DNA of 64,000 nt, from contig KV908673.1 of the NCBI GenBank assembly GCA_002005505.1, positions 73,761-137,760 on the forward strand. The letters are read 5' to 3'. Source of the stretch: Botryococcus braunii (taxonomy: Eukaryota > Chlorophyta > Trebouxiophyceae). The stretch's first letter is position 1. Every line of letters starts with the position of its first letter. The position numbers and the translations under genes are program-made. Below, piece by piece: positions 12,293 to 12,817 of the stretch. The notes below the pieces were generated by a model that searched no databases, was not told where the DNA came from, and worked only from the letters and a program-made list of their open reading frames with translations.

Positions 12293-12817
12293 TCAGTCGT
12301 CGCTCCTTTCTGACAGTCTGGAATCTCCGTCCTCGTCCACACTGTCTTCCTCTGTGTCCCACTCGTCCGCGTGAAATTCTCCTCCGCCGTAGAGAATTAG
12401 ATGGTCAATAAATTCGTCTCCCAGGCTGCTCAAAGCTAGCTCAATCGCTGCGTAGGCAGCTTTCTCCGTCCAGTAAGCTTCGTGCGACGGACCTCCCGTT
12501 TGCTGTAGGCACCTTTCAAAAATTGCTCGTGTCAGATATCCTGGCTCTCCGTTGATGAAAGAGACTTCCCACACAGTGAATTTGTAAGCTGGGTATATTG
12601 GGAAGCGCTCTTGGAACCACTGAGGTCGGGTGAGTGCTCCTCGTCCGTGTGCTTCGTGGACGAAGTCCTTCACCAGGAATGCTCGTTCGTCTATCGTCCG
12701 CGGTCCTTTGTCTCCTCCTGCCTTTCTTCTCTCGTTGTATGTTGGAGGAGGTGGTGGTGGTGGAGGACGTCTACCTCCGCCCGTGCTCATACGTCCGGTT
12801 TGTCGCGTTCGCGCCAT
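12293..12817 (-). CDS. Cop1-a ORF0, extra 174-aa protein with histone H3-like N-terminus
   Basis: An additional protein between PBS and gag, not part of the usual copia set. The first residues MARTRQTGRMSTGG match the histone H3 tail ([13 protein letters not shown]) at 10 of 13 positions after the initiator Met, with Arg at H3 position 4 and Met at position 9. Next come a Pro8 run, a central domain (ERAFLVKDFV, PQWFQERFPIYPAYK, SFINGEPGYLTR, EKAAYAAIELAL) and an acidic tail (EEDSVDEDGDS). Cop1-b encodes a homologue of exactly the same length. I recognise no known fold in the central domain. Function is unknown; mimicry of H3 is inferred. Confidence 0.85.
   Translation of the reverse strand: MARTRQTGRMSTGGGRRPPPPPPPPTYNERRKAGGDKGPRTIDERAFLVKDFVHEAHGRGALTRPQWFQERFPIYPAYKFTVWEVSFINGEPGYLTRAIFERCLQQTGGPSHEAYWTEKAAYAAIELALSSLGDEFIDHLILYGGGEFHADEWDTEEDSVDEDGDSRLSERSDD

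Follow-up and report, generated by a model that had tools for sequence, protein, structure and literature searches.

Within a 64,000-nucleotide stretch of the Botryococcus braunii genome (the window), one retrotransposon carries a short ORF, here called ORF0, whose first residues resemble the N-terminal tail of histone H3 with Met at the position of Lys9. The initial annotation took these residues for an H3 tail mimic with a Lys9-to-Met replacement. The locus thus raises the question of whether the resemblance is more than chance, whether the Met is maintained, and what such a protein could do for a mobile element.

The ORF0 of a Copia element and its resemblance to the H3 tail

The element at 6658-13588 is a Copia element in which an additional ORF precedes gag. 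Like Copia (Ty1/copia) elements in general it has gag, an integrase that precedes the reverse transcriptase (RT, assigned by eye) and flanking LTRs; the ORF0 before gag is where it differs from them. The features that matter here are as follows, in window coordinates.

12293..12817, minus strand: ORF0 of the Copia element, 174 aa
12776..12817, minus strand: N-terminal H3-tail mimic, Met plus 13 residues (ARTRQTGRMSTGG), assessed by shuffles, PDB searches and dN/dS
12788..12790, minus strand: Met10 codon, at the H3 Lys9 position, assessed by copy counts and replacement counts
12740..12778, minus strand: Pro-rich linker, ORF0 residues 14-26
12383..12739, minus strand: predicted helical core, ORF0 residues 27-145
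12296..12382, minus strand: acidic, probably disordered C-terminal part, residues 146-174, judged from sequence and a pLDDT of 49-59 for residues 151-174
8888..12277, minus strand: gag-to-integrase ORF of the same element, with Pfam gag_pre-integrs, rve and SH3_retrovirus
7032..9113, minus strand: RT / RNase H ORF of the same element in another frame, domain assigned by eye
6658..7013, minus strand: 3' LTR, 99.4% identical to 13233-13588
13233..13588, minus strand: 5' LTR, pairing with 6658-7013
46397..46921, minus strand: second ORF0 of the same Met-bearing branch (MGRTRRSGRMSTGSG), with an open in-frame extension upstream to 47161

The LTR edges of the ORF0 element are approximate, given a further repeat at 6638-6809 and 12884-13055 (99.4% identical). 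At the ends of several window elements a 136-152-nt stretch is repeated at a spacing of 329-332 nt, which makes LTR edges ambiguous; such end-repeat stretches lie at 19454-19933, 21480-21947, 27826-28293, 47009-47488 and 12904-13384.

ORF0 sits immediately ahead of gag. The gag ORF begins with an ATG 15 nt past the ORF0 stop in the window element, and the distance from the ORF0 stop to the first ATG in any frame is 13-17 nt in 114 of 124 copies from the genome. The other Copia family in the window, with gag at 22390, has no ORF longer than 67 aa listed on the same strand between 21600 and gag. A Pfam scan with the 174-aa ORF0 gave no match, and its helical core has no recognised relative. Structure prediction suggests that the tail, with a pLDDT of 50-60, is disordered, so that ORF0 would consist of a flexible tail on a helical core.

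The first 14 residues of the window ORF0 (12776-12817, minus strand) read M-ARTRQTGRMSTGG. The initial annotation had counted ten of 13 positions in ungapped agreement with H3, with Lys4 replaced by Arg and Lys9 by Met, and this count held when the tail was read against two host H3 genes (L141 and L142), both with a canonical tail: ORF0 residues 2-14 are identical to H3 1-13 at 10 of 13 positions without a gap, the differences being K4R, A7G and K9M. When the first 30 residues were shuffled with their composition kept, 0 of 5000 shuffles reached the observed score of 51, the shuffle maximum being 37. A phmmer search with the same 30 residues against 177,635 distinct PDB sequences placed histone H3 at the top with an E value of 0.08, which is weak alone, and H3-type chains (Cse4 counted) made up 58 of the best 60 matches listed. 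A control search of the PDB with the N-terminus of the adjacent Copia gag gave no match. Counting the window tail, H3 was the best PDB match for each of three N-termini searched singly, from two Met sub-branches and one protein of a branch with Lys at position 9 (E 0.03-0.23). Stronger support than any single search comes from the family itself, since the same or a closer H3 tail appears in other sub-branches and in the Lys branch described below. The earlier caveat that a short match in one copy might be fortuitous can be set aside, in view of the shuffles and of relatives that are also H3-like. We consider it nearly certain that ORF0 mimics the H3 tail.

Conservation of Met10 and selection on the tail

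Protein searches of the 176-Mb genome were made with the window ORF0 (best 150 of 797 candidates scored) and with the other window copy (best 150 of 800 candidates scored). From these, 140 copies were read, 98 of 150 from the first search and 42 of 150 from the second, partly picked for diversity. Position 10 of ORF0, the H3 Lys9 position, is Met in 139 of the 140; the single exception, L117, has Ile. Among distinct intact copies Met10 is present in 123 of 124, the exception again being Ile, and Arg directly precedes the Met in 123 of 124. The same frequency was found for each of R3, G8, R9, M10 and G13, which correspond to H3 R2, A7 (as Gly), R8, K9 (as Met) and G12. The remaining sites vary among the 124 copies: A or G at 2, T, K or S at 4, R or K at 5, mostly Q, P or K at 6, T or S at 7, S, G, A or R at 11, and T, S or A at 12. 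Met-branch copies share between 4 and 10 of 13 residues with H3 1-13, most commonly 8 or 9; the window copy is therefore among the most H3-like of its branch, and the single example in the initial annotation lay at the favourable end. A subfamily formed by L129 and its relatives reads GRTKQSGRMSTGGKRP and shares R2, T3, K4, Q5, R8, S10, T11, G12, G13, K14 and P16 with H3, matching 11 of 15 positions from R2 to P16.

The initial annotation had proposed comparing the tail with the Pro-rich linker across copies, and had staked its reading on the first 13 residues not drifting freely and on the Met being kept in intact elements. Both expectations were borne out. Parsimony counts on a tree made only from codons beyond the linker gave the linker the highest dN/dS, 0.44, followed by the tail at 0.27 (44 replacements, 60 silent changes), the C-terminal part at 0.19 and the core at 0.16. 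Mean entropy was 0.57 bits for the tail, near the 0.63 of the core, and 0.91 bits for the linker. At the Met10 codon one replacement (to Ile) was counted against 18.6 expected neutrally from the tail silent rate (P 1.7e-7) and against 9.7 expected at the linker replacement rate (P 7e-4). Measured against the core replacement rate Met10 is unexceptional (4.2 expected, P 0.078), and 49 of the 174 ORF0 codons have at most one replacement. These P values are rough because they rest on parsimony steps with many changes per silent site. Arg9, Gly8 and Gly13 are as constrained as Met10, Gly8 and Gly13 likewise showing one replacement each. Selection acts on Met10. The Ile of L117 is only suggestive of inhibitor chemistry, because a third of all single-base changes to ATG yield Ile.

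Two further observations concern the reading frame. In one Met sub-branch (window 46397-47161; L031-L059) the ORF0 frame is open for 37-89 codons upstream and the tail could then be internal to a longer product, whereas most other Met-branch copies have a stop codon immediately upstream of Met1. At G000:C556:62498-62959, ORF0 residues 21-174 lie inside a 2655-aa open frame, possibly a gag-pol fusion.

Lys, Arg and Met branches of the ORF0 family

A profile search of 5.8 billion proteins recovered 15 relatives among the best 8000 candidates scored, and a second profile search with distant members recovered 12, all found by the first. Two of the database proteins, P0012 and P0009 (jgi/Botrbrau1), are 100% identical to copies in the Botryococcus genome, and their N-termini match H3 at every position from R2 to K9. 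P0014, which comes from another source, reads RKRQTARKSTSSK from residue 17 onward. Arg takes the place of K9 in P0010 and P0011 (RQTARR), the resemblance is weak in P0007 and P0008 (RTQTAQRRT), and P0015 is without a tail. The number of shuffles out of 5000 that reached the observed score was 295 for P0007, 46 for P0010, 3 for P0011 and 3968 for P0015.

In the same genome, KQTARK, identical to H3 4-9, is present in 20 of the 21 Lys-branch loci read (L143-L151, L154-L165); the exception, L145, has Gly in place of Arg8. The residue at H3 T3 is variable in these loci (T, S, P, A or I), Asn or Cys occupies the G12 position, and the residues past the tail are as invariant as the tail. At the one Lys-branch locus examined for its surroundings, that of P0012 (L153), ORF0 is followed 58 nt on by a Copia gag-pol, so that the order of ORF0 and gag is shared between the branches. 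Tail profiles of the two branches, searched separately against the PDB, both had H3 as best match (E 0.045 for the Met branch, 0.023 for the Lys branch), and for both the best 60 matches listed were all H3, H3 variants or H3 fusions. When 11 tails picked as H3-like were pooled in a single profile, the E value was 1.1e-6.

The branches differ in register. H3 position 1 falls at residue 2 in the Met branch, at residue 4-5 in Lys-branch proteins and at residue 16 in P0014; therefore a free H3-like N-terminus is not common to the branches. With the mimic internal in the Lys branch and in P0014, the shared stretch runs from about K4 to T11.

When the core domains were placed in a tree with P0014 and P0015 as its root, the Met copies grouped together (bootstrap 89), as did the Lys copies (94), and the two Arg proteins fell outside both groups. 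The sister of the Met branch is a single copy, L152, whose start codon and H3-like tail are unrecognisable. Given this placement of Met, Lys and Arg members, Met9 is a derived condition, acquired in one branch of an H3-mimicking family. The ancestral residue at the K9 position was most likely Lys or Arg, in a tree whose deep bootstraps of 57-78 resolve the branching order weakly. The claim of an H3 tail mimic with K9M is thus supported for the window element, and a separate branch with Lys at position 9 confirms the mimicry; Met at the Lys9 position holds for the Met branch and not as a family-wide trait, since other members have Lys or Arg.

A short ORF0 derivative, a 90-aa open frame that breaks off within the core, was also seen. 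It gave at least 28 hits of identical score and is perhaps a high-copy non-autonomous element; the only copy read, L149 (G000:C29:750050-750450), retains the Lys-type H3 tail.

A candidate target in H3K9 methylation and the alternatives

The fixed positions of the tail can be compared with those that H3K9 methyltransferases read. SUV39H1 reads K4-G12 with an absolute need for R8, and tolerates K or weakly R at position 4, T, S, A or Y at 6, S, K or R at 10, A, G, S or T at 11, and G, K or Q at 12 (PMC8303541). Against this list, the numbers of Met-branch copies that fit, of 124, are 124 at K4, 122 at T6, 123 at R8, 98 at S10, 123 at T11 and 123 at G12. Six of the seven sites thus fit in 79-100% of copies, the list being that of SUV39H1, which may not be that of the algal enzyme. 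The seventh site, A7, fits in 0 of 124, with 123 copies carrying Gly, a residue absent from the list as excerpted. The tail changes T6 to S, R4 to K, and T11 to S or A are tolerated by SUV39H1; S10 to G, A or C is off its list, and 26 of 124 copies are outside the accepted set at this site. G9a is said to favour a hydrophobic residue at A7 (PMC8541646). For DIM-5 the stretch required in vitro is R8-G12: activity is lost with R8A and G12P and greatly lowered by S10A or T11A, K4L is harmless, and A7M has no significant effect according to the text, with a footnoted minus in the summary table (PMC3248561). The fixed tail positions coincide with much of these published requirements.

The Met itself has a biochemical precedent. 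In vitro, Clr4 is inhibited by an H3K9M peptide, whose binding tightens when SAM is present, and in a complex of the peptide with G9a and SAM, density was seen for residues 3-12 (PMC5030085). Over those residues the window tail differs from that peptide only by K4R and A7G, although H3K9M is a mutated histone or its peptide and ORF0 is a separate mobile-element protein with another core. The closest natural comparison is EZHIP (CXorf67), a non-histone protein in which, likewise, a histone-like peptide carries Met where the substrate lysine would be, with Arg just before it (PMC6513997). At its K27-like site inhibition is kept with Met or Ile and lost with Lys or Arg (PMC6513997). EZHIP differs in being a eutherian host gene (PMC12842176) directed at H3K27 and PRC2, with no transposon involved; ORF0 copies H3 around K9, at its N-terminus, and the inhibition that has been shown for EZHIP is inferred for ORF0.

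The initial annotation had set its proposal among plants, with KYP/SUVH and CMT3; that is land-plant biology, and the host is a chlorophyte green alga. The pathway nevertheless exists in green algae: in Chlamydomonas the SUVH-family protein SET3p deposits H3K9me1, and transgene arrays become active again when it is knocked down (PMC8566409). By analogy with Chlamydomonas, an H3K9 pathway would be present in the Botryococcus host as well. Its genome contains 11 SET-domain fragments and 4 SRA fragments, three of them consecutive on one contig and one over the cut-off; among these SET and SRA fragments we did not identify a SUVH gene or H3K9 methyltransferase. A Pre-SET search had no match either, which carries no weight because its control matched nothing. 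A Ty3/gypsy polyprotein in the window (39623-45136) has by eye a chromodomain-like C-terminus that may read H3 methylation.

Taken together, our preferred reading, to which we give a probability of about 0.6, is that with ORF0 the transposon encodes a mimic of the H3 tail directed at the machinery of H3K9 methylation, the Met branch being a K9M-type trap for SET domains. Weighing against it are Gly at A7, the variable S10, the replacement rate of Met10 and the entropy of the tail, neither of which stands out beside the core, the Asn or Cys at G12 and the equally invariant residues past the tail in the Lys branch, and the weaker or missing mimicry of other distant members. ORF0 would be an accessory protein placed ahead of gag in a Copia lineage, showing a flexible H3-like tail on its helical core, and the tail would copy the part of H3 read by H3K9 methyltransferases, about K4 to G12. 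In the branch of the window element Lys9 would have been replaced by Met and then held fixed. If ORF0 is expressed and reaches the nucleus, its tail would enter the SET-domain active site, Met would occupy the lysine channel and SAM would stabilise the complex. The enzyme would then be held off H3K9 at new insertions, and the element would be silenced less. Members of Lys9 branches (KQTARKTT) could be competing substrates for the same enzymes or, once methylated, act on H3K9me readers.

Such readers are the subject of the best-surviving alternative, an unlikely one in our estimate. Here the Lys-type tail, once methylated by the host, would be bound by chromodomains or other H3K9me readers; this would either anchor the particle or integrase in heterochromatin or keep the readers occupied, and Met would be neutral or methyl-lysine-like. 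The ARK(S/T)-like core kept in 20 of 21 Lys-branch loci and a histone mimic in G9a that the enzyme methylates itself (from a reference title in PMC8541646) agree with this, but the fission-yeast chromodomains tested do not bind an H3K9M peptide (PMC5030085), which leaves the fixed Met unexplained.

Less probable still, the tail is a basic arm that serves nuclear import or binds nucleic acid or the nucleosome surface, and is H3-like only through its Arg, Thr and Gly composition. Gag-like proteins often have basic arms, and the ORF0 tail is Arg-rich besides being predicted to be disordered. Composition does not account for the composition-keeping shuffles, none of which reached the score of the window tail, nor charge for the uncharged Met10, Gly8 and Gly13 with their single replacements, and the exact KQTARK of the Lys branch also speaks against it.

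The free N-terminus of H3 (A1-R2-T3) has readers of its own, among them PHD fingers, WDR5-like proteins and LSD1-type demethylases, and it is improbable, though conceivable, that ORF0 mimics this end for them. The Met-branch register is exact from residue 1, with Ala or Gly after Met and R2 in 123 of 124 copies. The T3 position, on the other hand, is Lys or Ser in 34 of the 124, the shifted register of the Lys branch and P0014 does not present such an end, and this function needs neither Met at 9 nor Gly at 12.

It is very improbable that Met10 is kept as a second start codon giving a tail-less ORF0, as the database gene model P0002, which begins there, might suggest: a purine at -3 with G at +4 surrounds Met1 in 122 of 124 copies and Met10 in 10 of 123, and of the equally constrained Arg9, Gly8 and Gly13, Arg9 and Gly8 precede such a start. 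A functionless relic of a captured first exon of host H3 would explain a Met-branch tail that begins with Met in the H3 register, and is scarcely credible with a tail under purifying selection (dN/dS 0.27) and, in three copies, 8-10 same-residue codons of which only 2-4 share their third position with the two host H3 genes.

Returning to the K9M-type trap, other transposon and histone-mimic systems share some of its properties. Influenza NS1 is a histone mimic with a short H3-like sequence in a non-histone protein, and to our knowledge a fixed Met at K9 is a feature of neither the NS1 nor the G9a mimic, which belong to other proteins and hosts. The G9a automethylation site resembles ORF0 in the same respect, a short H3-like sequence in a non-histone protein (title cited in PMC8541646). 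The VANC proteins of Arabidopsis VANDAL elements are transposon-encoded, as ORF0 is, and counter epigenetic silencing (PMC5735166, PMC10398659), an effect that ORF0 may share. They differ in being sequence-specific for their own elements, and the excerpts of these papers mention no histone mimicry (PMC5735166, PMC10398659). K-to-M mimics and transposon anti-silencing proteins are thus each known; no description of the two joined in a retrotransposon, and for K9, appeared among the open-access matches listed, at most 20 per topic (subscription papers and preprints being outside this scope).

With slightly better than even odds, we would describe ORF0 as marking a retrotransposon lineage with dedicated H3-tail mimics whose K9 residue has been switched between branches (Lys, Arg, Met), the Met branch being a natural K9M-type poison of H3K9 methyltransferases that uses oncohistone-like chemistry as an anti-silencing weapon at a copy number well above 100 in a single algal genome. 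If so, mobile elements use a decoy of the H3K9 substrate to attack its methylation, and a green-algal transposon holds a natural K9 counterpart of EZHIP, which acts at K27. Retrotransposon resistance to H3K9-based silencing would be testable with short peptides, the Lys and Met versions in this genome offering a built-in comparison, and the tail gives a sequence signature for searching other mobile elements and viruses.

The window holds further features apart from these elements. A 794-aa ORF at 57618-60002 has by eye a Rep-like stretch and perhaps belongs to a rolling-circle element, an ORF at 61034-61450 resembles by eye part of a tyrosine-recombinase element, and two mutually matching arrays of 8- and 10-nt repeats lie at 54315-54519 and 57023-57231.
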